The translations under genes were made by a program, and so were the position numbers. The notes under the pieces were generated by a model. That model saw only the letters and a list, made by a program, of their open reading frames with translations. It ran no database searches and had not been told where the DNA came from. 64,000 nt of DNA from Pseudoxanthomonas sp. JBR18. GTDB lineage: Bacteria > Pseudomonadota > Gammaproteobacteria > Xanthomonadales > Xanthomonadaceae. Shown here piece by piece: positions 2,488-23,216 of this stretch. Positions within the stretch are counted from its first letter, which is position 1; every line of letters starts with the position of its first letter. The stretch is from NCBI RefSeq assembly GCF_028198165.1, contig NZ_CP116339.1, positions 1 to 64,000 of the forward strand, in the 5' to 3' direction.

Positions 2488-3996
2488 TCACCTCATCGGG
2501 TTGTAGGGGCCATCGGCATTGCCGGCGGCGTAGTTGTCTTGATCGCGGATGGCCATCGGCGTGCCGTCCGGGAAGCGAGGCTTTGCCTGGACCGGGTAGG
2601 CGAACGAAATCACCAGCGCATCGGCCCGGTTCGGCGAGGGCTGCCCGCGCTTCTTCATGTCCTTCTTGCTCTCGATCTGGATCTTCCCGTCCAGGCGGGC
2701 GACGGTTTCCGGGGCCGTCAGCTCGTCGCGCAGCTGCGGATCCTCCTCGATCGCCGCGCCTTCCTTGAGCCAGTCACGGGTCAGCTTCCACATCTCGGCG
2801 CGCTTGTTCAGGCAACCCCGGTCGCCGGCATCAGCCGCGAACCAGACCAGGCGCCAGTCGCGCTGCCAGGTCGTGCCGACCGACTTGATGCCCGTGCCGT
2901 AGCCGGCGTCGATGAACACCGCATCGGCTTTGTGCTCGTCCTCAAGCTGCGCCAGGATCGTGGCCACCAGCACGTCGTTGTCGTTCTTTCCCATGGTCCG
3001 CAGCACGCGGAACATCAGGCCCTGCCGCAGGCCGAACACCAGCTCGTCGTCGCCCTCCCAGGCCGGGTCCAGCGTCAGGATCTTCGGCGCGAAGTTGTAC
3101 TGTTCCGGCCGCAGGTGCCGCCCGTAGGCCGCATCCACGTCCTTCTCGGAGATGAACTGCTTGGCCGACATCGACGGGAACAGGCCGCGGATACGGACCT
3201 TGACCCGGTCCGAGTCCTCGCCGTACTCGTCCACCATGGCCTGCATTTCGACCAAGTTGGTGCCTTCCACCGTCCGGGTGTCGATCTGCTCGCAGTCCCA
3301 GCGCCGGGCGTGCTTGCGGAAGCACTCGCGGAACTCGCCGGTGTTGCGGGTCGGGTTGCCGAACGCGGCCCAGATGATCTCTGTGTCCTTGTCCGTAAGC
3401 GCACCCTCGGCCACCTCCCACACCTTGTCGGCGATGGCGGACGCCTCGTCGAAGATCAGCAGCAGCCGCTTGCCTTCGTTGTGCAGGCCGGCGAACGCCT
3501 CGGTGTTGCTCTCCGACCAGGGCACCGCGTCGATGCGCCAGGTCTTGTCGTGCCCGGGCGCCTTGCTGATCAGCGCCGTGGCCGTCAGCGTCGACCAGTG
3601 CTGCGTCAAGCTCATCTCGTGCCACTTGGACACCTCGGCCCAGGTCTTGGTCCTGAGCTGGTTGTCGGTGTTGGCCGTGACGACCCCGCGCGTGTCCTCG
3701 AAGGTGTCGAAAGCCCACTTGATGAGCATCGCCACCAGCGCGGACTTGCCGATACCGTGGCCGGACGCCCGGGCCATGCGGATCACCTCGCCCGCATCGG
3801 CAGCTCCCGCGCGCAGCTTCTCGCCGACCCTGGCCAGGAACTTGCGCTGCCACTTGCGCAGCGTCTTGCCCTCCAGGGCCGTGCCCTTCTCCCCCCAGGG
3901 GAAGACGAACAGCACGTAGCCCAGCGGGTCCAGTTGGAACGAGGCGACCGCCTCGATCAGCTCCTGCTCGGGATCAGCCGCCAGCTGTGCGTTCAC
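2488..3996 (-). CDS. Terminase large subunit (packaging ATPase/nuclease)
   Basis: The large terminase subunit cuts concatemeric phage DNA and pumps it into the prohead through the portal. In the 502-residue form, a Walker A-like SGHGIGKS lies near residue 80, a Walker B with catalytic acid (LLLIFDEAS) near 180, and RNase H-fold nuclease acids in LTLDPAWEGDD near 310, VFIDAGYG and the C-terminal NRADALV. The frame stays open upstream to 4062, but GTG at 3996 with an AAGGCGG site just before it, overlapping terS by 23 nt, is the better start. The intact ATPase and nuclease motifs suggest an active enzyme. Confidence 0.9.
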   Translation of the reverse strand: MNAQLAADPEQELIEAVASFQLDPLGYVLFVFPWGEKGTALEGKTLRKWQRKFLARVGEKLRAGAADAGEVIRMARASGHGIGKSALVAMLIKWAFDTFEDTRGVVTANTDNQLRTKTWAEVSKWHEMSLTQHWSTLTATALISKAPGHDKTWRIDAVPWSESNTEAFAGLHNEGKRLLLIFDEASAIADKVWEVAEGALTDKDTEIIWAAFGNPTRNTGEFRECFRKHARRWDCEQIDTRTVEGTNLVEMQAMVDEYGEDSDRVKVRIRGLFPSMSAKQFISEKDVDAAYGRHLRPEQYNFAPKILTLDPAWEGDDELVFGLRQGLMFRVLRTMGKNDNDVLVATILAQLEDEHKADAVFIDAGYGTGIKSVGTTWQRDWRLVWFAADAGDRGCLNKRAEMWKLTRDWLKEGAAIEEDPQLRDELTAPETVARLDGKIQIESKKDMKKRGQPSPNRADALVISFAYPVQAKPRFPDGTPMAIRDQDNYAAGNADGPYNPMR

Positions 3997-4414
3997 GTGC
4001 CGCCTTGAGCCGGTCAGCCAGGTTGCCAACCACGTCGTGGTCCACGGCGAGACGCTGGCCATAGCGCTTGGACGCCAACTTCTCCATGCGCCAGCGCTTG
4101 TTGGTCAGGACGACGTTTGCCGCCTTCGGATCCAGTGCGCCCGACAGCACGTCCGCCTCTATCTCACCCATCTGGTCGTGGTGCACCTCTGCCTGATCCT
4201 CGCGCGCGCGCGCGCACTTGGCGGCGAAACTGGCATCCACCTCCATCCACCGCTCTACGGTTCGGCGGTCTGGCATGCCGTCACGCATGCACACCTGCCG
4301 GAGGCTTTCCCCCTCCGCGATGGCGTCACAGATGGCGTCGGCCAGCTCAGGCGTGTACAGGCTCGGCCGTCCGCCCTTGGACTTGGGCGCCTGGTCCTTG
4401 GCCTGCCTGGTCAC
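3974..4414 (-). CDS. Terminase small subunit
   Basis: This 146-residue protein recognises the packaging site on phage DNA and presents it to the large subunit. The N-terminal third holds a helix-turn-helix (LADAICDAIAEGESLRQVC, then RRTVERWMEVD), the usual DNA-binding part of the Terminase_5/Sf6-type family. The middle has the acidic oligomerisation segment, and the conserved NVVLTNKRWRMEKLASKRYG lies in the C-terminal half. It overlaps both neighbours: ATGA with the spanin gene upstream and 23 nt with terL downstream. Confidence 0.82.
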   Translation of the reverse strand: MTRQAKDQAPKSKGGRPSLYTPELADAICDAIAEGESLRQVCMRDGMPDRRTVERWMEVDASFAAKCARAREDQAEVHHDQMGEIEADVLSGALDPKAANVVLTNKRWRMEKLASKRYGQRLAVDHDVVGNLADRLKAARERTAGG

Positions 4415-7854: not shown

Positions 7855-8025
7855 TCACGACATGATGTAAGCGGCGCAGCGCCTACAAAACCGCTTGCTG
7901 CCCAGAAGTGGAAGACAGCAAGTAGCCCCAAGGACACCGCATACGCAGCAAGGGCGCTCGCGCTGGATACGCTTCGCCTTTCCAAGTTGGAACATCGCGA
8001 TTAGCCATCCGATTGGGTCAGTCAC
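7855..8025 (-). CDS. 56-residue Cys-rich protein, likely zinc-binding
   Basis: A GTG at 8025 overlaps the stop of the upstream nuclease gene (GTGA) and opens a 56-codon frame. The second half holds seven Cys: CCVC, then CC seven residues after the last of these, and FCRRC near the end, a pattern suited to one or two zinc ribbons. It ends 11 nt before the ATG of the next gene and overlaps that gene's potential upstream GTG. The start-stop overlap and the Cys pairs argue against chance, but no homologue is known to me. Confidence 0.5.
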   Translation of the reverse strand: MTDPIGWLIAMFQLGKAKRIQRERPCCVCGVLGATCCLPLLGSKRFCRRCAAYIMS

Positions 8026-8345
8026 GCCAGCTCCTTAGCCGCTCGGGCATCAACGACCAGCACGCCCATTGAGGCCGCGCGGTCTAGGGTTTGGAAAACG
8101 TGCCGCCACTGGGCGCCTTGTCGCGCCTCCCATGCCGGCCAGTCGGAATGCAGCTCGGTGTGGCAGTCCGGGCATAGGGGCATGCAGGCCAGGTCGCTGT
8201 GCTTGCTGCTGCCATACCGGTCGGCGATGCAGTGATGGGCGTGCACCCTGCCCTGCACCCCGCAGCCGCAGCACGGCAACGACCTCACCCAGCCCAGGTA
8301 GGCCTCGCTGCGCAGCTTCGGCAGCCTCATCAGGTCGCGGATCAT
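8022..8345 (-). CDS. HNH-like nuclease of the DUF968 type
   Basis: The 107-residue protein has the small, Cys/His-rich nuclease layout seen in DUF968-like proteins of lambdoid nin regions: SLPCCGC near residue 23, VHAHHCIADRYG near 34-46, and PLCPDCHTELHSDW near 57-70. This looks like a treble-clef zinc site carrying the HNH-type catalytic His. The N-terminus (MIRDLMRLPKLRSEAYLGWV) is typical. The start at 8345 overlaps the NinB stop (ATGA). The role in recombination is inferred from its neighbours RusA and NinB. Confidence 0.72.
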   Translation of the reverse strand: MIRDLMRLPKLRSEAYLGWVRSLPCCGCGVQGRVHAHHCIADRYGSSKHSDLACMPLCPDCHTELHSDWPAWEARQGAQWRHVFQTLDRAASMGVLVVDARAAKELA

Positions 8346-8740
8346 GCGGCCTCCCGGAAATCTCGCGGGTTGAAGCCCTGCCCCAGCAGGACAACGTCCG
8401 ACCATCGGACAGGCTTGCAGCGCAGCCCCTGGTCTTCTGGCCTATCGCCGATGTCGAGGCCGAGATTGATCGCCTCGGCCGCCTGAGTTTTCGACAGGTC
8501 CAAGCTTGACCGGCCCAGCATCACCAGCCCCGGCTGTCCCTGCCCCGTGTTGATCCCTGGCACGAAACGGAAGCCAAGCACCGTGCCGGCGAGCGTGTGG
8601 CGCCAGTCGTCCTTATCCAGCCGGTGGCCGTGCCAGTTGATCTGTTCCAAGTCGCCGCAGACAGCGTTTAGCATCTTCTGCTGCTTGCGGGTCATGGGCT
8701 CGGCTCCGGCAAGTTGCCAGTCGCACGGTTCTACATTCAC
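8342..8740 (-). CDS. ninB: NinB-like recombination protein
   Basis: NinB (Orf in lambda) binds single-stranded DNA and helps RecA-independent recombination, modulating strand assembly in place of RecFOR. The 132-residue protein carries the family's hallmark stretches: MTRKQQKMLNAVCGDL from residue 16, HGHRLDKDDWRHTLAG, LVMLGRSSLDLSKTQAAEAI, and a C-terminal RWSDVVLLGQGFNPRD. Length agrees with the family. It is embedded between DUF551 and DUF968-like genes by ATGA overlaps. Confidence 0.85.
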   Translation of the reverse strand: MNVEPCDWQLAGAEPMTRKQQKMLNAVCGDLEQINWHGHRLDKDDWRHTLAGTVLGFRFVPGINTGQGQPGLVMLGRSSLDLSKTQAAEAINLGLDIGDRPEDQGLRCKPVRWSDVVLLGQGFNPRDFREAA

Positions 8741-9439: not shown

Positions 9440-9606
9440 GCAATCCCCCTCTTTGTAAATGCCATCGCCGCCTCAGCACTCGGGCACACCGCCACCAGCC
9501 GCGCGGCGCGGAACAGGCGGTAGCACGGCCCATCAATGAACCACCCCTTGGCGATCAGCCACGGCGGGCACGACATCGTGTCGGTGCTTGTGCGGGTCCA
9601 GGTCAT
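9436..9606 (-). CDS. 56-residue phage protein of unknown function
   Basis: An ATG at 9606 overlaps the stop of the cytosine methyltransferase gene (ATGA), and its own stop overlaps the next start. The product begins MTWTRTSTDTMSCPPWLIAK, has a central GPCYRLFRAARLVAV and no recognised domain. The paired overlaps support translation. Confidence 0.5.
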   Translation of the reverse strand: MTWTRTSTDTMSCPPWLIAKGWFIDGPCYRLFRAARLVAVCPSAEAAMAFTKRGIA

Positions 9607-10874
9607 GCGACCTCCTTCAACTGCTGAGCGAAGGCTTCGGCCGCCTGGATCTTCTGTCCGATCCAGCGGATCACCGGCACCGCGAACGAGTTGCCCAGCA
9701 TCTTGTAGCGCGGGCCGTCGGCCATCGGCTTGCCCTTGGCGTTCGGGATCAGCGTGTGGTTGTCCGGCGCGCCCTGCAGGCGCTCGCACTCGATGGGAGT
9801 CAGACGGCGGACCTGCGCGCCGGCGTGCACGGCCGGCGTCTGGCCTACCGAAAGTGTGGGCGTAGTGCCTAGGTGCGGGTCGTAGCCAAGCGTGGTTTGC
9901 ACGCCGCCGCCTTGGTGCGCGAAGGCCACCGGCACCAGCGGCGTGCCGCGCCCCGTTCCGTCCTCGCTGGCGTCGAACCCATCGGCGCGCAGGGTGTGAG
10001 CCACTTCCTGTACCAGGAACGTCTCGGATTCAAAGTCCATCCTGCCGCTGGCGCTGGCGCATGCGTTGCGTGCCGTCGCCACATCAATCGGGCCGGATGT
10101 GTTGTTTCCCCCGAACGCCTTGATCAGGTGTCCTGCAGCGGCTTCATCTGGTCCGATGCGCCATCCGCCACCTGGCGAAGTGCCAACGAGAGCGCCAACG
10201 GCAGATCCCGCCCCCGCTTCTCGGCGCGGCGCAGAATCCCGCTGCACGCCCTGGGGCTCAAAAAGTACCTGGAAGGGATCGAACCCGTCTCGAGCACTTG
10301 CGACAACGAACACACGGCGGCGTCGTTGGGCCAGGCCGAAGTATTGGGCGTCGAGTACACGCCAGGCGAGAGTTCGCCTTGGGCCAACGACAACACCAGC
10401 GTCCGGCCACCGATCCCCTGGCGGGATAAGCGCACATTCTTCCCCAGCCAACTCACCAAGGAAACATCCGAAGGCGTTGTCCCCCGTCGAAAGGACGCCG
10501 GGGACGTTCTCCCACACGGCGATGCATTCTTGCTCGCTTCGAGCGCGTCGAACATCGTCAATTGCATTGACTATCTCGCAGTAGGTGAGGGCAAGGTTTC
10601 CTCGGGAATCGGCAAGTGAGCGGCGGGCGCCAGCCACGCTGAACGACTGACACGGCGTCCCCGCGATGAACACTTCGGTCGCCTCGACCACCCCGGCCCG
10701 CACCCGCTCGGGGATGGTCGTCATGTCTCCGAGGTTTGGCACCTCGGGCAGGCGGTAGGCCAGCAGCGCGCATGGTGCCGGGTCAAGTTCCGCGACCCAC
10801 GCAGTCGTCCACCCCAGCGGGGCCCACGCCAGATGCGCTGCCTCCATGCCGCTACAGGCGCTTCCGTACCTCAT
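9603..10874 (-). CDS. C5-cytosine DNA methyltransferase
   Basis: This 423-residue enzyme transfers a methyl group from SAM to C5 of cytosine in a DNA sequence motif. Motif I appears as GSACSGMEAA at the very N-terminus, motif IV as AGTPCQSFSVAG with the catalytic Cys at residue 75, motif VI as WENVPGVL near 121, motif VIII as AQRRRRVF near 182, and motif X as KMLGNSFAVPVIRW near the end. The target-recognition region is about residues 200-350. No cognate restriction gene is adjacent, so it is an orphan phage methyltransferase, probably for protection against host restriction. Motif I is unusually abrupt: see the remnant upstream. Confidence 0.9.
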   Translation of the reverse strand: MRYGSACSGMEAAHLAWAPLGWTTAWVAELDPAPCALLAYRLPEVPNLGDMTTIPERVRAGVVEATEVFIAGTPCQSFSVAGARRSLADSRGNLALTYCEIVNAIDDVRRARSEQECIAVWENVPGVLSTGDNAFGCFLGELAGEECALIPPGDRWPDAGVVVGPRRTLAWRVLDAQYFGLAQRRRRVFVVASARDGFDPFQVLFEPQGVQRDSAPRREAGAGSAVGALVGTSPGGGWRIGPDEAAAGHLIKAFGGNNTSGPIDVATARNACASASGRMDFESETFLVQEVAHTLRADGFDASEDGTGRGTPLVPVAFAHQGGGVQTTLGYDPHLGTTPTLSVGQTPAVHAGAQVRRLTPIECERLQGAPDNHTLIPNAKGKPMADGPRYKMLGNSFAVPVIRWIGQKIQAAEAFAQQLKEVA

Positions 10875-11266
10875 TGGGTGCGCTCCAAGTAGTCGAGCGC
10901 GGCCAAGTAGTGAGGCCAGCGATCAAGGGAGTGCAGCTTCACGTTGCACGGGTGGCAAAGCAGGCCGCGCACTTTCCCGCTTTCGTGGTCGTGATCCACG
11001 CACTCGCGGTTCATGGGTTGCCGGCAGATGCCGCATACGCCGCCCTGGCGCTCGCGCATGGCGTCCACGTCGGCAGGCGTGAGTCCATAGCGGGTCTTGA
11101 GCCCCCACTTTGCCCGTTGCTCGGGGCTTCCCTTGCGCTCCCGCTTGCGGGTGTTCATGCACGCTTTGCACCAGCCATGCAGGCCATTGGGTCTGCTGGC
11201 GCGCTTGGACATGGCATCGCGCGGCTTCTCGACTTGGCAGCGCGAGCAGCGGAACAGCGCGGTCAT
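10871..11266 (-). CDS. Recombination endonuclease VII-like HNH nuclease
   Basis: The 131-residue protein has an N-terminal zinc site (LFRCSRCQVEK, then GWCKACMNTRKRERK) and the Endonuclease VII core: RYGLTPADVDAM, GVCGICRQP, CVDHDHESGKVRGLLCHPCN, LHSLDRWPHYLAALDYL. The DHDH...CHPCN part carries the catalytic His-Me finger. T4 Endonuclease VII resolves branched DNA; small homologues like this also behave as mobile nuclease genes. The start at 11266 is chosen by overlap with a 14-codon methyltransferase remnant. It is flanked by two near-identical 17-bp copies of dcm motif I DNA. Confidence 0.82.
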   Translation of the reverse strand: MTALFRCSRCQVEKPRDAMSKRASRPNGLHGWCKACMNTRKRERKGSPEQRAKWGLKTRYGLTPADVDAMRERQGGVCGICRQPMNRECVDHDHESGKVRGLLCHPCNVKLHSLDRWPHYLAALDYLERTQ

Positions 11267-11307
11267 TGCGCAGCCTCCATGCCGGAGAAGAGGGAGAGGT
11301 AGTTCAC
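11263..11307 (-). pseudogene. 14-codon remnant of a DNA methyltransferase N-terminus
   Basis: A GTG at 11307 opens a frame reading MNYLSLFSGMEAAQ and then stops in an ATGA overlap with the Endonuclease VII gene. This is the canonical start and motif I of a phage Dcm protein (LSLFSGMEAA). The last part, at 11267-11283, matches 16 of 17 bases at 10834-10850 inside the intact methyltransferase. It looks like the original methyltransferase 5' end, severed when the nuclease gene entered. It could still act as a short leader coupling translation, since its GTG overlaps the preceding stop. Confidence 0.6.
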
Positions 11308-11492
11308 GCCGCCAACTCCCGCAACTGCCGCAGCGCCAGCCGGTCAAGGTGCCGGATCGTCGCGCCGCGGGTGCGCCCCATGGCCTCGTCGATCATGCAG
11401 CGGGCCACGTCCTCGTCCACGCCCCCAGCGGCCGCGATCTCGGCGGCGTTGAAGCCCTCCTGCAGGAGGTGCCAGACGGTTGCGGCGTTCAT
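11304..11492 (-). CDS. Small phage protein with helical repeats
   Basis: This 62-residue protein (MNAATVWHLLQEGFNAAEIA...) is helical with a likely helix-turn-helix-like hairpin (FNAAEIAAAGGVDEDVARCMID) and a basic Leu-rich end (HLDRLALRQLRELAA). It is locked into the operon by ATGA and GTGA overlaps on both sides. I recognise no specific family. Confidence 0.5.
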   Translation of the reverse strand: MNAATVWHLLQEGFNAAEIAAAGGVDEDVARCMIDEAMGRTRGATIRHLDRLALRQLRELAA

Positions 11493-11890
11493 GCGTCCGG
11501 CCCCGCTGAGGCGAGCTTGCCGCTCTGGAGGGGCTCACCAGCGCCAGGCACGCGGCGAAGGGTGCGAGCGATTTCGTCCATTGCGCGCTTGGCTCGCTCT
11601 GGATCCGCCCTGATCGTCTGCTTCGTCAGCGCCAGCTGCTCACGGGGCGGCATGGCTTCCAGGAAGTGCAGCGGCGCCGGCCAGCTCGTCCGGGTCCGCG
11701 CCAGGGTCGAGAAGGCGGCGCGGAACCGCGGCGCGTCCAGGCGCTCATCAAACACGCGCTGATGCATGATCGCCTCGCACCACATCGCCGCCGTGCCTTC
11801 GACCATGTCAAAGGCCGGTGTCCGTTCAAGGCTCAGGCAGAGCAGGCGGCTCAGGCCGTCCATGATTTCGTTGTGGATCCACGTTTCCAT
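11489..11890 (-). CDS. Phage protein of unknown function
   Basis: The 133-residue product has a helical N-terminal half (METWIHNEIMDGLSRLLCLS, then EAIMHQRVFDERLDAPRF) and a basic helical C-terminal part. It is preceded by AAGGA at 7 nt and overlaps the last 65 nt of the DUF1376 gene in another frame. It lies in the replication module, but no domain was recognised. Confidence 0.6.
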   Translation of the reverse strand: METWIHNEIMDGLSRLLCLSLERTPAFDMVEGTAAMWCEAIMHQRVFDERLDAPRFRAAFSTLARTRTSWPAPLHFLEAMPPREQLALTKQTIRADPERAKRAMDEIARTLRRVPGAGEPLQSGKLASAGPDA

Positions 11891-12626
11891 GCTTCATTCC
11901 TTGGAGTTTCTGGATTGCTGCGAGGGTCTTACTGGGGGGCTGAGCAGCTGGCGGTCCAGCGCGCCCATGCGGCATAGCGAAGTCGGCATGCAGCCCTGCC
12001 CAGCCCTTCTCCGCGCAGAACTTCACAGCGTCGGCCACGGACATGCCCGCCTTTTCCGCAGCACGCCGGAAGCCTTTCGCAGCCGTCTCTGTCAGCGGGA
12101 GCTTCTTGGCCTTCCGGGCAGCCACCCAGTCCCGCAGGTGCCCTGGATCGACATCGGGGAACAGGTCGGATGGACTTGGCGCGCTCGGCGCGACCCGTTT
12201 TTGCTTTTGCTCTTCTTGGTGATTGGTGTCTGGTGTCTGGTGAGCTTTCGGTTGGGTTTCCAAATCGAAAGCCGGTAAAAAGGGTTGGGTTTCTTTGGGT
12301 TTCTTCGGGGGGCGCCCGCCCTTCTTCCCGTTCTCCCGGGCGGCATCAACCTTTGCCCGGTATCGCTCGATTTCCTCGTCGGCGCGCTTGTTGTGCCAGC
12401 CGTCGTCTTCCAGGTGGAAAAACTCATCGAGCACCACACCCACGGCTGCCACCTCATCCGGCGATCGCGCCCCGCACAGGCGCGCAACCTGGGCGACATC
12501 ACCAGGAAGCGGAGTCTCTTGGAGGTAGTAGCGACGGAGCATGCGGCTGAACAGCGCGTCCTCGATCAAGGACAGGTGCGCCGTGGCTGCCGCGTAGTCG
12601 CCGATGTGGTGCTCGTAGTAATTAAT
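11826..12626 (-). CDS. DUF1376 (YdaU-like) replication protein, AUU start
   Basis: DUF1376 proteins are phage replication-module proteins thought to act at initiation or helicase loading. The N-terminal domain is plain: NYYEHHIGDYAAATAHLS, then DALFSRMLRRYYLQETPLP, with a basic linker (KKGGRPPKKPKETQ) near residue 100 and a C-terminal helical part. In this family Met precedes N-Y-Y; here that codon is ATT (12626-12624), with GGAGG 8 nt upstream. No in-frame ATG, GTG or TTG lies between the ribosome site and N-Y-Y. The next usable codon is TTG at 12569, which would delete the conserved start and has no ribosome site. The product from AUU is 266 residues. Confidence 0.75.
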   Translation of the reverse strand: MNYYEHHIGDYAAATAHLSLIEDALFSRMLRRYYLQETPLPGDVAQVARLCGARSPDEVAAVGVVLDEFFHLEDDGWHNKRADEEIERYRAKVDAARENGKKGGRPPKKPKETQPFLPAFDLETQPKAHQTPDTNHQEEQKQKRVAPSAPSPSDLFPDVDPGHLRDWVAARKAKKLPLTETAAKGFRRAAEKAGMSVADAVKFCAEKGWAGLHADFAMPHGRAGPPAAQPPSKTLAAIQKLQGMKHGNVDPQRNHGRPEPPALPEP

Positions 12627-13413
12627 GGCGGCATCCTCCGATATGGAGGCGCGCCTTAGCCGCCATGCAAGCGGTAGCCCTCAATGCAGCCGGCCGGGGA
12701 AGATGCGCCCAGGTGCGGCCAGCGGCTATGTGGGCGATGGTCTGGCGAGAGACACCAAGATCCGCAGCGATCGCGTCAGACTTCATACCCGATGCGATCA
12801 TTTCAATCGCCTTGCACGCATCAGCCTCGGTCAGCTTCGCCATGCCATGGCGCTGGCCTCGGTTGTGGTGCCCATCCCGGTAGATCGTCTTCCTGCAGCT
12901 GTAGTCAGGCACAGGAATGTGCTTCCAGGTGTACCCATGCACAGCGGCATGCATGTTCGCGGGGTTGATTGGCCAGCGAATCAGCAGCTCGGAGTACTGC
13001 ACGCCCTTTGCGTACAGATCTCGGATTTCAGCAACATCGGCGGCGGTCAATCGCGAGCCATGTACTTGCTCGCCACGGACACGCCGGCCGTGCCGCTCCT
13101 TGTCAGCCTCGTTTTCAGCAGGTGTGCCGTAGGCGAGGTTGTTTACGGATGGGTTCTGCGGGTTGCCATCAAGGTGACGGCAAACGTAGCCCTCAGGGCG
13201 TGGGCCCAGGAACGCATCAGCAACCAGGGAATGAACGCTCTTAGTGAGCGTATCGCCTAGGCGACATAACGAGACAGCCGGGTATCCGGTGCTCTTGATG
13301 CTCCAAACAAGAAGGCGTGGGGTGCCACCGCGACAGGAAACAATTTGCCCCGCATCCGTAACGAAATAGCCAGGGAATCCTGACACCGGGCGGCAGAACT
13401 GATCGGCGCTCAT
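12622..13413 (-). CDS. NUMOD4/HNH homing-type endonuclease
   Basis: This 263-residue protein has the domain order of free-standing phage homing endonucleases: a NUMOD4-like start (FCRPVSGFPGYFVTDAGQIV), an HNH_3 core (VHSLVADAFLG, CRHLDGNPQNPSVNNLAYG), then two helix-turn-helix DNA-binding modules (LTAADVAEIRDLYAKG; MKSDAIAADLGVSRQTIAHI). The ATG at 13413 has AAGGAG 6 nt upstream and is preferred over a longer frame to 13506. It sits between the 92-residue gene and the DUF1376 gene, and its TAA stop overlaps that gene's AUU codon. The last 20 residues look like read-through into former intergenic DNA. Confidence 0.82.
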   Translation of the reverse strand: MSADQFCRPVSGFPGYFVTDAGQIVSCRGGTPRLLVWSIKSTGYPAVSLCRLGDTLTKSVHSLVADAFLGPRPEGYVCRHLDGNPQNPSVNNLAYGTPAENEADKERHGRRVRGEQVHGSRLTAADVAEIRDLYAKGVQYSELLIRWPINPANMHAAVHGYTWKHIPVPDYSCRKTIYRDGHHNRGQRHGMAKLTEADACKAIEMIASGMKSDAIAADLGVSRQTIAHIAAGRTWAHLPRPAALRATACMAAKARLHIGGCRH

Positions 13414-13424
13414 GCTGCTACTCC

Positions 13425-13703
13425 TTACGACACAGGCCACCAGGTGACGGCCTGATTCCCCGTCACGCGGCATTTGCGCGCCGGGCCCTTCTTCAGGGCC
13501 GCGCACTCAGGCAGTCGCCGCGCAACCTGATGCCGCTCCAGCGGACACAGACGCGACAGCTCGAAGCTGGTCAGCCCCGGATTCTTGGTGACTGCCTCGA
13601 TGACCAGCGAGCGCTGGTGAGCGCTCTTGCCGGACTTCACCATGTGCTCGGCGGCGTCCCAGCTGGTCGCTGGATCTGTTGCGCGTGCGGGTAGATGGTT
13701 CAT
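13425..13703 (-). CDS. Winged-helix-like small phage protein
   Basis: The 92-residue protein begins MNHLPARATDPATSWDAAEH and contains a winged-helix-like region (QRSLVIEAVTKNPGLTSFELSR in part, then LERHQVARRLPECAAL). Proteins with a TDPATSxxAA start are common in prophages between the cII-like gene and replication genes. DNA binding is plausible, function unknown. It overlaps the upstream 41-codon gene by ATGA. Confidence 0.65.
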   Translation of the reverse strand: MNHLPARATDPATSWDAAEHMVKSGKSAHQRSLVIEAVTKNPGLTSFELSRLCPLERHQVARRLPECAALKKGPARKCRVTGNQAVTWWPVS

Positions 13704-14257: not shown

Positions 14258-14392
14258 ATGGATTTAGTGCGTCACGCCTCGCCCAACGTCACCGCGCTGG
14301 TGCGCATCGCAGGCAACTGGTTTTCCGTGCGATGGGTGCGCGGCAAGCTGGTCATGCGGAAGCTGCGCAGTGGCACCGGCCGCTTCCAGTGA
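14258..14392 (+). CDS. 44-codon plus-strand ORF opposite the cro operon
   Basis: An ATG with AAGGA 8 nt upstream opens a frame starting MDLVRHASPNVTALVRIAGN and ending LRSGTGRFQ. The alternating hydrophobic/basic pattern (WFSVRWVRGKLVMRKL) looks more protein-like than the antisense frame. It would need its own promoter and would run against the leftward operon. Listed as possible only. Confidence 0.28.
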   Translation: MDLVRHASPNVTALVRIAGNWFSVRWVRGKLVMRKLRSGTGRFQ

Positions 14393-14524
14393 TCGCCACG
14401 CTTTCTTGGCCAGCCGCAGGTCACCGCGCGCCACTGCTCGCCGGAACCTGGCGTACTGCGGCAGCGTCTCTGGCGTGAGGTCGCAGACCCACCGCATACC
14501 TGGGCGTCTGATCGGCTCGTCCAT
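14264..14524 (-). CDS. Small phage protein downstream of cro
   Basis: The ATG at 14524 lies 1 nt from the cro stop, giving an 86-residue product. The N-terminal half (MRWVCDLTPETLPQYARFRR, then GDLRLAKKAWRSLEAAG) looks like a compact helical domain, while the C-terminal 35 residues are low in hydrophobics and lie antisense to the plus-strand ORF at 14258-14392. No family recognised. The gene may be real only in its first half. Confidence 0.42.
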   Translation of the reverse strand: MDEPIRRPGMRWVCDLTPETLPQYARFRRAVARGDLRLAKKAWRSLEAAGATAQLPHDQLAAHPSHGKPVACDAHQRGDVGRGVTH

Positions 14525-14525
14525 C

Positions 14526-14756
14526 TCAGGCCGCCTCGCTGCTGTCCGCAGGCCAGAGGTCGGGACGCAAGTCACCGCGTTGCACGGCTCCCTCGGTCGC
14601 GCGTTCGATCTCCACGACGCGTTCGGCCGGGATCGTGGCGCCCTTCTCCCATTGGGAGACGAGGCCCTGGGTCGCGGCAACGCCGCGTTCTGTCAGGTAG
14701 GCGGCAAGGGCCGACTGGGACAGGCCATGGGTCTTACGGAAGGAAAGGATGTCCAT
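14526..14756 (-). CDS. Cro-like YdaS-family repressor
   Basis: The 76-residue protein has an XRE helix-turn-helix: GLSQSALAAYLTERGVAATQ followed by LVSQWEKGATIPAERVVEIE, and ends with the YdaS/Cro-type GDLRPDLWP. Proteins of this type are the first leftward gene and oppose the CI repressor. Start at ATG 14756. The predicted promoter puts the transcription start only about 4 nt before this ATG, so the mRNA is probably leaderless. It is divergent from the CI gene across the operator region. Confidence 0.82.
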   Translation of the reverse strand: MDILSFRKTHGLSQSALAAYLTERGVAATQGLVSQWEKGATIPAERVVEIERATEGAVQRGDLRPDLWPADSSEAA

Positions 14757-14766
14757 GGGGACGAGA

Positions 14767-14794
14767 GTATTAGCGCCCCTATTCTTTCAGTCAA
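14767..14794 (-). promoter_or_regulatory. Leftward early promoter (cro operon)
   Basis: On the minus strand TTGACT (14794-14789) and TAATAC (14772-14767) are separated by 16 nt. One operator copy overlaps the -10 end and another the -35 end, so repressor binding would block polymerase. Confidence 0.65.
14770..14780. promoter_or_regulatory. Operator copy 1 (TTAGCGCCCCT)
   Basis: An imperfect dyad of the form TAG-CGCCC-CTA that overlaps the -10 of the cro promoter. The same core occurs five times between 14770 and 16131 and nowhere else I noticed. Confidence 0.6.
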
Positions 14795-14804
14795 TAGCGC
14801 CCCT
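14794..14804. promoter_or_regulatory. Operator copy 2 (ATAGCGCCCCT)
   Basis: Same core as copy 1, spaced 24 nt from it centre to centre, touching the -35 of the cro promoter. Confidence 0.6.
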
Positions 14805-14828
14805 CATGGCAGCCGACGAACGGTGTCA

Positions 14829-14839
14829 TTAGCGTTCCT
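14829..14839. promoter_or_regulatory. Operator copy 3, diverged (TTAGCGTTCCT)
   Basis: Two mismatches to the core. It lies 5 nt before the CI start codon, a position suited to autoregulation of the repressor. Confidence 0.45.
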
Positions 14840-14843
14840 CATC

Positions 14844-15545
14844 ATGGAGAACACCCGGAAATCGAAGCCGACGGACGAAGACGTCGCTGCGGCCGCCAAG
14901 CTGAAAGCGGTCTGGCAGGCGAAGGCGCGCGGACTGGGCCTGACGCAAGACTCTGCCGCGGCCGAGTTGAACATCACGCAGGGCGCAGTGTCCCAGTACC
15001 TGGGCGGCAAGATCCCTATGAACTACCTCACCCTGCACGGCTTCTGCCGCCTGCTGGGCATCGAGGCCTCGTCTATCCGCACTGACTTGCCCGAGCAGCA
15101 GCTGGGCATCGAGCCTGACACCAGCGACTGGGCCGACGTCGAAGGCTTCCAGGCCAACATCGCACTGGGCGACGGCGCGGCCAATGAGGAATGGCAGGAG
15201 GCGCACAAGTTGAAGTTCCGCGCGTCCAGCCTGCGCCGGCAGGGCCTGTTCCCAGGCAACCTCCAGGTGTTCTACGGCCGCGGCGATTCCATGGAGCCAC
15301 GCATCCACGACGGCGACGCGATCCTGGTCGACCGCAGTGACACGCGCCCGGTGGACGACGGCATCTTCATGCTGGAAAACGAGGACGGCGCCTACGCCAA
15401 GCGCCTGAGCAAGATCGACGGCCGATGGTTCGTCACCAGCGACAACGGGCACGACCCGAAGTGGCGCAAGCCGGTGGCATTAGAGGGGCGCAAGCCCTTC
15501 AAGATCCTGGGTCGCGTGCGTTGGGTGGGGAGTTGGGTTAAGTGA
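14844..15545 (+). CDS. LexA-like CI prophage repressor
   Basis: The repressor maintains lysogeny by binding the operators on both early promoters and is inactivated by RecA-stimulated self-cleavage. The 233-residue protein has an N-terminal HTH (LGLTQDSAAAELNITQGAVS, residues 31-50) and a C-terminal S24 peptidase domain with the catalytic Ser149 in YGRGDSMEPRIHDGD and Lys186 in AYAKRLSK. The frame extends far upstream, but the ATG at 14844 starts the recognisable protein, right after the operators. Its stop overlaps the GTG of the next gene, coupling the two. Confidence 0.88.
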   Translation: MENTRKSKPTDEDVAAAAKLKAVWQAKARGLGLTQDSAAAELNITQGAVSQYLGGKIPMNYLTLHGFCRLLGIEASSIRTDLPEQQLGIEPDTSDWADVEGFQANIALGDGAANEEWQEAHKLKFRASSLRRQGLFPGNLQVFYGRGDSMEPRIHDGDAILVDRSDTRPVDDGIFMLENEDGAYAKRLSKIDGRWFVTSDNGHDPKWRKPVALEGRKPFKILGRVRWVGSWVK

Positions 15546-17822: not shown

Positions 17823-18734
17823 GTGAACAACATCATCAACATCGAGCATGAGATTTACAGCACCAAAGATGCATTCATGTCGGTGCTGGCTGATCGTTCG
17901 ATCAGTTTCGATCGGGAAGCAGAGTTCGCCATCCAGCTGCTTTATGGCAACGACTACGCGATGAAAATCGCGATGGCAAACAAGCAGTCCGTCATCAATG
18001 CGGTGGTGAACATCGCCGCCATCGGCATCAGCCTCAACCCAGCGAAGAAGCAAGCATATCTGGTGCCGCGCGACGGCAAGATCTGCCTGGATATCAGCTA
18101 CATGGGGTTGATGGATTTAGCCATCGAATCAGGCTCCATCCGCTGGGGTCAGGCTGAGCTGGTGTACAGCAATGACACCTTCATGCTCAACGGCGTGGAC
18201 AGGGAGCCTGTGCACAAGCGCGACCCGTTCAGCCGTGACCGTGGCGAGGTCGTTGGCGCGTATGCGGTGGTCAAGACGCCCGAAGGCGACTACCTGACCG
18301 AGTGCATGAGCCGCGATGAGATCGACGGGATCATGAGCCGCTCACAGTCTGTGCGCTCCGGAAAGGCGTCCCCCTGGAAAACCGACTGGGGCGAGATGGC
18401 AAAAAAGACGGTGGTGAAACGAGGCTACAAATACTGGCCGAAGACCGACCGCCTGGACCAAGCAATTCATCACCTGAACACCGATGCGGGCGAAGGCCTC
18501 GCTATCCTCGAACACAAGAAGGAGCCAGCACGTGCGGCGCTGCCGGCACCCGTGGATAGCCCGGAGCGAGACGCCCTGTATGCGCGGCTAAGCGACATCG
18601 CAGAAGGTGGCACCGAAGCCTACGCCAAAGAGTGGAAGGCGCTCACTCCCGAGCAGCGGAAGATGATCGGCGGCCCGGCCCACGAGGGCCTGAAGGACAA
18701 GGCCGAGCTGGCTGATGCGGAGGTGGCCGAGTGA
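17823..18734 (+). CDS. recT: RecT-family single-strand annealing protein
   Basis: RecT coats single-stranded DNA and anneals complementary strands, working with a 5'-3' exonuclease in phage recombination. The 303-residue protein shows the family's core: QSVINAVVNIAAIGISLNPA, KKQAYLVPRDGKICLDISYM, GLMDLAIESGSIRWGQAELV, and WKTDWGEMAKKTVVKRGYKY. Length agrees with the family (about 270-330). It starts at GTG 17823 and its stop overlaps the exonuclease start (GTGA), the usual pairing. Confidence 0.88.
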   Translation: MNNIINIEHEIYSTKDAFMSVLADRSISFDREAEFAIQLLYGNDYAMKIAMANKQSVINAVVNIAAIGISLNPAKKQAYLVPRDGKICLDISYMGLMDLAIESGSIRWGQAELVYSNDTFMLNGVDREPVHKRDPFSRDRGEVVGAYAVVKTPEGDYLTECMSRDEIDGIMSRSQSVRSGKASPWKTDWGEMAKKTVVKRGYKYWPKTDRLDQAIHHLNTDAGEGLAILEHKKEPARAALPAPVDSPERDALYARLSDIAEGGTEAYAKEWKALTPEQRKMIGGPAHEGLKDKAELADAEVAE

Positions 18735-21887: not shown

Positions 21888-22216
21888 GCGCCGCCGAAGA
21901 CCTCCGGCTTGACGGCGACTGGCTGACCGAGAAGGAGGCTGCGGCCTATTGCCGCGTGTCCTGGAGCCAGTTCAAGGAGCACGCCATGCTGCTCGGCGTG
22001 GTGCCGCGCCGATTCATGGGGAAGAAGCTGTACGAGAAAGCGGCCCTCTATCGGGCCATCTACGAGTCCGAGCAATGGCAAAGGTCACCATCTACTGGCG
22101 CAGCGGCGTCGCCTACCTCAACTGGCGCCAGGCCGGTGAGCGTTTCCGGGCCTCGATCGGGCGGGTCACCGAGCGAGAGGCTGAGCAGGTTCGAGCAGCG
22201 AAGGAAGCAGAGCTGA
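21884..22216 (+). CDS. Excisionase-like helix-turn-helix protein
   Basis: The 110-residue protein starts MSAAEDLRLDGDWLTEKEAA and shows a MerR/AlpA-like winged HTH (WLTEKEAAAYCRVSWSQF, then GVVPRRFMGKKLYEKAALYR). It overlaps the integrase start by 142 nt in another frame; the C-terminal 45 residues are low-complexity. Small HTH proteins directly before the integrase gene are usually excisionases that bend att DNA. The assignment rests on position and fold. Confidence 0.62.
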   Translation: MSAAEDLRLDGDWLTEKEAAAYCRVSWSQFKEHAMLLGVVPRRFMGKKLYEKAALYRAIYESEQWQRSPSTGAAASPTSTGARPVSVSGPRSGGSPSERLSRFEQRRKQS

Positions 22217-23064
22217 CCCATGGGGTACGCATCCTGGCCAGGCTGCCAGCGGTGCGCCCCTACCTGGAGAGCTACCTGGACTGGTACGAGGCCGAGCACC
22301 CGACCACGATCGGCAAGGCGCGCAGCGAGATGCGCCGCTTCATCGGCCAGTTCGGCCACCGCCCGATCGACACGATCAAGCCCTTCGAGATCGAGCAGTA
22401 CAAGCGCCGCCGGCTGATGGACGACAAGGCCGCGCCGGAGACGGTCGGCAAGGAGATCCGCCGGCTGCAGGCGGCCTTTCGACGCGGCGTAGGCTGGCAG
22501 CAGCTGGACGTGAACCCGCTGGAGGGGATCAAGGCGCCACGAGGCGTGCGCAGCGTGGCAGTGCGCTTCTACGACCGGGCGGCTATGCGCCGGCTGTACC
22601 GTGCCAACCCCGCGCGCGCGCCACTGTGGCTGTTCCTGGCCCACACTGGGCTGCGCCGCGGCGAGGTGATTGGACTGCAGCACAGCGCCGTGGCGGCTGG
22701 CCGGCTGTACGTGGAAAGCGAGCCTGACGATACGGGCGCCGGGCGTACCAAGTCCGGGCGCTGGCGCGAGGTGCCTCTGAACCGCTACGCCGCCTGGGCC
22801 CTGCGCCGCCTGCCAGATCCTCTGGTGGACGTGCATAAGGACACGGTCAGCGACTGGTTCGCGAGGGACGCCAAGAAGGCCGGCATCGGCGGAAGCCTGC
22901 ACAGGCTGCGCCACACCTTCTGCGCGCACATGGTGATGGCCGGGGTTCCGCTGCGCCGCGTCCAGCTGCTGGCCGGGCACGCGGACTACGCGACGACCGA
23001 GAAGTACTATGCCCACCTGACGCCAGAGGGCGACGACGGCGCGGTGCGGAAGCTGAGGTTCTAG
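22075..23064 (+). CDS. Tyrosine-type prophage integrase
   Basis: The integrase performs site-specific recombination between attP and the tRNA gene. In the 329-residue form (ATG 22075) the active-site set is complete: Arg194 in HTGLRRGE, His276 and Arg279 in LHRLRHTF, His302 in LAGHADYATTEK and the nucleophile Tyr312 in KYYAHL. The N-terminal arm-binding part starts MAKVTIYWRSGVAYLNWRQA. The frame is open further upstream, but that part is antisense-like to the excisionase gene. It reads toward the tRNA 3' end, the normal layout. Confidence 0.9.
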   Translation: MAKVTIYWRSGVAYLNWRQAGERFRASIGRVTEREAEQVRAAKEAELTHGVRILARLPAVRPYLESYLDWYEAEHPTTIGKARSEMRRFIGQFGHRPIDTIKPFEIEQYKRRRLMDDKAAPETVGKEIRRLQAAFRRGVGWQQLDVNPLEGIKAPRGVRSVAVRFYDRAAMRRLYRANPARAPLWLFLAHTGLRRGEVIGLQHSAVAAGRLYVESEPDDTGAGRTKSGRWREVPLNRYAAWALRRLPDPLVDVHKDTVSDWFARDAKKAGIGGSLHRLRHTFCAHMVMAGVPLRRVQLLAGHADYATTEKYYAHLTPEGDDGAVRKLRF

Positions 23065-23139: not shown

Positions 23140-23216
23140 TGGTGACCCCGAGTGGATTCGAACCACTGACCTTCCCCTTAGGAGGGGGACGCTCTATCCA
23201 GCTGAGCTACGGGGCC
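23140..23216 (-). tRNA. tRNA-Arg (anticodon CCT)
   Basis: The 77-nt minus-strand gene folds as a standard cloverleaf: acceptor GGCCCCG paired with CGGGGTC, D-arm with AGCTGGATA, anticodon stem TCCCC/GGGGA holding loop CTCCTAA with anticodon CCT, and T-loop TTCGAAT. CCA is encoded. It reads AGG codons. Its 3' end faces the prophage and the integrase gene, so it is the likely attachment site; the gene is intact, as phages normally restore the 3' end. The other att copy should lie left of the window. Confidence 0.95.

Follow-up and report, generated by a model that had tools for sequence, protein, structure and literature searches.

Our finding that, in a prophage of Pseudoxanthomonas sp. JBR18, a gene for an Endonuclease VII (EndoVII)-type nuclease lies between a 14-codon remnant of a phage C5-methyltransferase gene (dcm) and a full-length dcm, which itself looks like a hybrid of two Dcm families when its parts are compared with their relatives, suggests that phage nuclease genes may settle inside dcm by bringing along a replacement for the gene front that they disrupt. 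The locus is located in positions 1 to 64,000 of contig NZ_CP116339.1, the whole of this stretch being referred to as the window, which belongs to a 4.6-Mb single-contig bacterial genome. A mobile nuclease gene entering dcm with a replacement 5' end had been proposed in a first-pass annotation of the sequence; this is supported here as the best reading, and the pattern recurs in other phages, beyond the single case described at first. We consider it quite probable that the nuclease is a free-standing homing endonuclease of the DHHRN type, resembling F-CphI, whose target in phage dcm genes is the run of codons for motif I.

A dcm remnant, a nuclease gene and a full-length dcm

The three genes are located on the reverse strand. 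The remnant of the native dcm 5' end (11263–11307) starts with GTG, as does the dcm of the related locus L001, and reads MNYLSLFSGMEAAQ up to its stop codon, that is, the N-terminus of a Dcm protein with motif I, ending at the EndoVII gene as had been recognised at the outset. The nuclease gene (10871–11266; 131 aa) is directly followed, again as first described, by an intact methyltransferase gene (9603–10874; 423 aa) with a second motif I, whose product has the N-terminus MRYGSACSGMEAAHLAW and matches PF00145 (E 4.5e-31) with motif I in N-terminal position; its TIGR00675 score of 100.4 bits lies slightly below the cut-off of 100.65. Both stop-start overlaps of the initial description are present, each reading ATGA (11266–11263 between remnant and nuclease gene, 10874–10871 between nuclease gene and dcm). 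The dcm-like part of the remnant comprises 41 nt (11307–11267), of which 38 are identical to the uninterrupted dcm 5' end of L001, and in its last codon (Q) two bases come from dcm while the third is the A of the nuclease ATG. Uninterrupted relatives of the YLSLFSG type read YLSLFSGMEAAHLAW in one unbroken frame.

A loose motif-I signature has two hits in the six frames of the window, exactly at the remnant and the full dcm, whereas 60 random sequences of equal length, drawn from a first-order Markov model, gave 4 hits altogether. The direct repeat noted previously at the two sites is indeed present with one mismatch; its length is 18 bp rather than 17 (the 17-bp copies as first delimited match at 16/17 positions). 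Copy 1, CGGCATGGAGGCTGCGCA, forms the left junction (11267–11284, reverse strand) and copy 2, CGGCATGGAGGCAGCGCA, lies in motif I of the full dcm (10834–10851, reverse strand), the two being identical at 17/18 positions. The junction repeat CGGCATGGAGGCWGCGCA has these two matches in the window and none in 100 dinucleotide shuffles.

The short frame might be a functional leader, serving translational coupling or carrying a Shine-Dalgarno site, rather than a scar. It overlaps the upstream 62-aa gene (11304–11492, reverse strand) by GTGA (11307–11304) and the nuclease gene by ATGA, and a GGAGG (11274–11278, reverse strand), read from the sequence 7 nt before the nuclease ATG and built from the remnant's motif-I codons, probably acts as a Shine-Dalgarno site for the nuclease. 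The dcm loci that lack the nuclease speak against this explanation. Loci encoding related Dcm proteins were fetched in a number of 123, namely 80 viral (the best 80 of 215) and 43 bacterial ones, and the main motif I was recognised by a regular expression in 104 of them, the other 19 being dropped. None of the 104 nuclease-free loci, 5 of which hold less than 300 nt upstream, has a second motif-I peptide within 1500 nt upstream of dcm, so that the separate leader in nuclease-free phages, which had been named beforehand as the observation that would speak against an insertion scar, was not encountered. In relatives that do carry the nuclease a similar peptide is fused in frame to it or truncated. 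The frame may well be kept for coupling, yet its origin is dcm, and we regard an original leader function as very improbable.

A perfect empty site, with the same flanks and no nuclease, was not found among the fetched loci. The closest flanking relatives, L101–L103, contain relatives of the 62-aa gene (77–84%) and carry other genes after it. In L103, from about position 4180, the 62-aa gene is followed by a methyltransferase of a different family (MNYYNEFDS..., read by eye); hence, the slot seems to exchange methyltransferases.

A full-length dcm of apparently hybrid origin

Reference Dcm proteins, chosen by similarity to the Dcm of the window and freed of close copies, were sorted by their motif I into a GS-type (117) and an L/I-S-type (54). 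In a leave-one-out comparison, the last 100 residues of a reference agree with its own motif-I type in 150/171 cases. For the Dcm of the window, codons 18–200 are of GS-type in each of three segments (5/5 neighbours), while the last 100 residues are of L-type (0/5 neighbours GS) and the last 110 aa are 83% identical to L001; a sliding comparison places the switch near codon 280. The gene thus appears to be composed of a donor-like part, codons 1 to about 280 (10035–10874, reverse strand; boundary approximate), mostly of the GSVCSG family, and a native-like part, codons about 281–423 (9603–10034, reverse strand), of the YLSLFSG family, as indicated also by its identity to L001. Since the remnant (YLSLFSG) is of L-type as well, the native gene seems to survive at its two ends, as the remnant and the dcm 3' part, and the nuclease gene together with dcm codons 1 to about 280 looks like the piece that arrived. 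The foreign 5' end proposed initially is therefore retained, with a larger extent that makes the gene a hybrid.

A nuclease of the DHHRN type

The nuclease matches PF02945 (E 1.4e-17) over residues 57–128 of 131, which places its EndoVII motif at the C-terminus, an arrangement shared by most of the endonuclease clade. Residues D91, H92, H94, R100 and N108, and the zinc-binding CX2C pairs C78/C81 and C104/C107, are invariant in a 44-row alignment; the nuclease accordingly has both the catalytic residues with zinc pairs and the C-terminal motif that characterise DHHRN homing endonucleases. It is 36.6% identical over 131 aa to F-CphI, and its D-to-R and D-to-N spacings equal those reported for that enzyme (D101, R110, N118). 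F-CphI is described as a characterised homing endonuclease that targets psbA and works together with an intron in collaborative homing (PMC6083498). The nuclease of the window likewise is a phage gene beside its presumed target; its target differs in being dcm, no intron was found, and a replacement gene front is carried. The arrangement expected for intronless homing, i.e. a nuclease gene beside its target and conversion of the flank, is present here as a sequence signature only.

Some EndoVII-type nucleases are reported to be intron-encoded (PMC6083498), and the nuclease might correspondingly reside in a group I intron or an intein within dcm. Comparison with Rfam, however, gave nothing up to E 1 for positions 9500–12000 of the window, nor at gathering scores for six related loci, and the downstream dcm has a complete N-terminus of its own, so that splicing would duplicate motif I. 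We give this explanation almost no credence.

Recurrence of the arrangement in viral contigs

A related nuclease gene is located directly upstream of a methyltransferase gene in 14 places, comprising the window and, after removal of duplicates, 13 viral contigs (L149, L150, L151, L152, L153, L154, L155, L156, L157, L166, L237, L319 and L320; the methyltransferases of L154, L319 and L320 are PF00145 matches). The viral nuclease relatives most similar to that of the window are among those adjoining a methyltransferase gene in this upstream position. As dcm-linked members made up the nuclease profile for the later scans, the resulting counts apply to one clade rather than to EndoVII genes at large. 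The overlap between nuclease and methyltransferase genes is exactly ATGA in 13 of the 14 places (the window, at 10871–10874 on the reverse strand, and 12 of the 13 related contigs), with L154 having a longer overlap and a TTG start. On the left side, a remnant is recognised in 8/14 places (window, L149, L150, L151, L153, L154, L156 and, in short form, L319). Motif I is fused in frame to the nuclease in L149, L151 and L154, EFGSVCSG stands in the nuclease frame of L150, MTLTFGSV is found on the left side in L319, and separate remnants of about 26 and 44 residues are present in L153 and L156, respectively. A fixed right end combined with a left end scattered near motif I would be expected of a nuclease gene and a dcm front that move as a unit. 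In a further locus, L328 (1854–2433), a dcm remnant that spans about 58 codons precedes an EndoVII gene, no methyltransferase being recognised downstream; this is perhaps a case where the host methyltransferase gene was lost.

Wherever a remnant is present (8 places), it and the carried front differ in their motif-I residues (e.g. YLSLFSG versus YGSACSG), which fits a carried allele that resists the nuclease. Moreover, the type of the dcm front differs from that of the dcm end in 6/6 typed remnant loci (window, L149, L150, L151, L153 and L156), versus 21/171 references (Fisher p 7.6e-6), and in 8/11 typed loci overall (p 2.0e-5), p-values that are optimistic because the loci are related; the typing left out L154, whose downstream gene is of another kind, and L319 and L320 with their other kinds of methyltransferase. 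In 5 of the 6, remnant and dcm end are of one type.

The left junctions were surveyed in 121 proteins of the clade (P0002–P0010 and P0163–P0274, the latter drawn from 120 listed of 4454 matches). Among the matches listed, 39/121 begin with a dcm motif I upstream of the zinc knuckle, a count obtained with a conservative regular expression (by eye, P0176, P0202, P0206, P0225 and P0233 may also have such starts). No such start occurs in 29 other EndoVII proteins (P0014–P0042), nor in 164 EndoVII open reading frames (ORFs) that lack dcm downstream and represent 130 distinct sequences; with a downstream dcm it is found in 6/18 ORF rows, corresponding to 4/12 different places. Again among the matches listed, the left junction lies within 10 residues of SG in 35/39 proteins and most commonly follows 7 matched residues, as in IEAASVA (12/39), the matching being greedy and overshooting by a few residues in some rows.

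Two further kinds of start were seen. P0178, P0183 and L150 (about 1540–1660) read FGSVCSG, then KSRTGRPAIDLLGQRFGR, then the EndoVII part, with P0178 continuing LLVVERV. We take the KSRTGRPAIDLLGQRFGR piece to resemble the start of a second, HNH type of nuclease, and one dcm spot may have been invaded by two nucleases in turn; a search for this piece in phages by tblastn found nothing. The starts of the EndoVII proteins P0233 and P0259, MRAATCFSGIGAPE and MIIGSVCSGIGAPE, respectively, seem to be scars from methyltransferases of other families.

Proposed mechanism and its alternatives

We infer that the nuclease gene sits just upstream of a dcm allele which the nuclease would spare. In a mixed infection, or in a superinfected lysogen, the nuclease would cut the dcm of a rival phage just after motif I, and repair would then copy the nuclease gene and the front of its own dcm into the victim. 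A hybrid methyltransferase may result from crossing over between homologous dcm stretches on the 3' side, and on the 5' side, joining near the cut would leave a short remnant of the old gene, which may in turn supply a start codon or a Shine-Dalgarno site for the nuclease.

The main rival, which we consider unlikely, holds that the two genes encode a type II restriction-modification system, comparable to Hpy99I and its methylase, which took the place of an earlier orphan dcm or was inserted into it. Hpy99I belongs to the same nuclease class, being a beta-beta-alpha-metal nuclease related to EndoVII that adjoins a methylase, and adjacency to a methyltransferase gene in 14 places is what such a pair would show. 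Hpy99I is, however, a sequence-specific restriction enzyme, and neither dcm remnants nor hybrid methylases are predicted for a pair of its kind, which would also have no reason for the motif-I starts in the survey of left junctions. The partner methyltransferases are in fact of several kinds and often internal hybrids, which is unlikely for a pair needing one shared specificity. Similarity among the nucleases tracks that of dcm codons 1–25, 18–60 and 61–130 with r 0.30, 0.22 and 0.40, and that of the last 100 residues with r 0.14, slightly below the front, all of these correlations being weak. Searches of the nuclease against NCBIfam and PADLOC gave no match at E 0.01.

Slightly less probable still is ordinary exchange of phage modules, in which a nuclease-dcm cassette recombined into the dcm slot by chance or through short homology and cutting by the nuclease is irrelevant. 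The repeat shared by both junctions (17/18 bp) could reflect a crossover at microhomology, the prophage encodes a RecT-like annealing protein, and the different Dcm seen by eye in the same slot of L103 would likewise fit. Against it stand the clustering of left junctions after motif I and the position of the nuclease, which borders the replaced part on its left in the 14 places; chance would not place a nuclease there every time.

Several observations weigh against homing into motif I with a carried front. A remnant is not recognised in 6/14 places (L152, L155, L157, L166, L237 and L320), and that of L319 amounts to a few residues. ATGA overlaps are common between phage genes, which makes this feature weak when taken alone. 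The remnant type of the L153 hybrid differs from that of its 3' part, the type call of L151 depends on 3/5 neighbours, and L150, L156 and L157 share similar 5' parts, so that the loci are only partly independent. L154, L319 and L320, whose downstream methyltransferases are of a different kind, do not fit a simple 3' crossover between homologous dcm genes. The dcm front in the window is, furthermore, not purely foreign: its MEAAHLAW codons resemble the native type, the best single match of codons 1–25 is of L-type (L077), and 126 nt within codons 1–90 align to L001 at 79%, which, judging from these alignments, marks this area as one of finer mosaic structure or conversion. The downstream copy also keeps 17/18 bp of the junction repeat, including the native-like MEAAHLAW codons, and resistance of the carried allele would consequently have to come from the half-site upstream. 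Finally, the closest nuclease relatives (P0002–P0006) are known here as proteins alone.

The surrounding prophage

The prophage also comprises genes for a head-tail adaptor (402–2114) and a large terminase (2488–4062) on the reverse strand, and for a CI-type repressor (14370–15545), the RecT-like annealing protein (17823–18734) and an integrase (21949–23064) on the forward strand; a tRNA-Arg (23140–23216) lies near the integrase. The RecT-like protein could promote recombination between diverged dcm genes. Two other nuclease-like genes are located near dcm on the reverse strand, one encoding an HNH_3/phrog_59 endonuclease with weak helix-turn-helix matches near its C-terminus (12622–13506), the other matching DUF968/phrog_96 (8022–8405).

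Relation to known mobile nucleases and significance

Among known systems, the mobile ORFs of fungal mitochondria come close. Those in Glomus atp6, atp9, cox2 and nad3, along with that in Allomyces atp6 cited in the same source, are described as forming gene hybrids with a foreign 3' end (PMC3630166). There, too, an endonuclease ORF is accompanied by a foreign copy of a gene end and the native end is displaced, and the corresponding hybrid arrangement is found in the window, with a remnant, a nuclease gene and a dcm front mostly of the foreign family. The described cases differ in that they concern fungal mitochondria and a replaced 3' end, whereas here the 5' end is replaced in a phage, an ATGA junction is shared, and many relatives capture the start codon in frame. 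Given the bacterial prophage and the replaced 5' end, the element would work like a mitochondrial-type mobile ORF without being filed as one.

Free-standing nucleases inside phage genes are also known from T4-type phages, where they are described as giving split products, mobE starting in a stop-start overlap (PMC2988022). Shared features with mobE in Aeh1 nrdA and mobA in T4 gene 60 are the position inside a phage coding sequence and the stop-start coupling; according to the same account those genes stay split (shown to work for Aeh1 nrdA), whereas the dcm of the window has a replaced front, its old one being scrap. The ShiLan element is described as a homing HNH insertion in an actinophage methylase, with the first 11 residues of the insert resembling the residues that follow the insertion site (PMC11855218, PMC9957025). 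In contrast to the present case it is read through in frame with the methylase, the nuclease being in another frame, and the available descriptions mention neither a replaced gene end nor an EndoVII-type nuclease. Nuclease genes have moreover been reported at boundaries of exchange between phages (PMC10448857). Searches of the open-access literature gave no description of an EndoVII-type nuclease that invades dcm with a replacement 5' end.

On balance, we favour the view that there is a lineage of EndoVII-type homing endonucleases which is specialised on the motif-I codons of phage C5-methyltransferases, and whose members would each carry a resistant gene front as cargo behind the shared ATGA junction, turn the invaded gene into a hybrid, often take over the victim's start codon by in-frame fusion, and thereby drive the mosaicism of phage methyltransferases. 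Homing genes usually persist inside genes by splicing out, as introns or inteins, or by leaving a working split gene. A nuclease that brings a replacement for the end of the gene it breaks is otherwise known, to our knowledge, only from fungal mitochondria, at the other end of the gene; a phage nuclease that brings a replacement front would thus represent a third way to survive inside a gene. With likely cut sites recorded as scars in dozens of natural sequences, the target becomes predictable and can be tested. Genome annotation is concerned as well, many members of this EndoVII clade having a methyltransferase fragment at their N-terminus. Finally, such nucleases may be a cause of hybrid phage methyltransferases, and would then be relevant to restriction, defence evasion and the mosaicism of phages.
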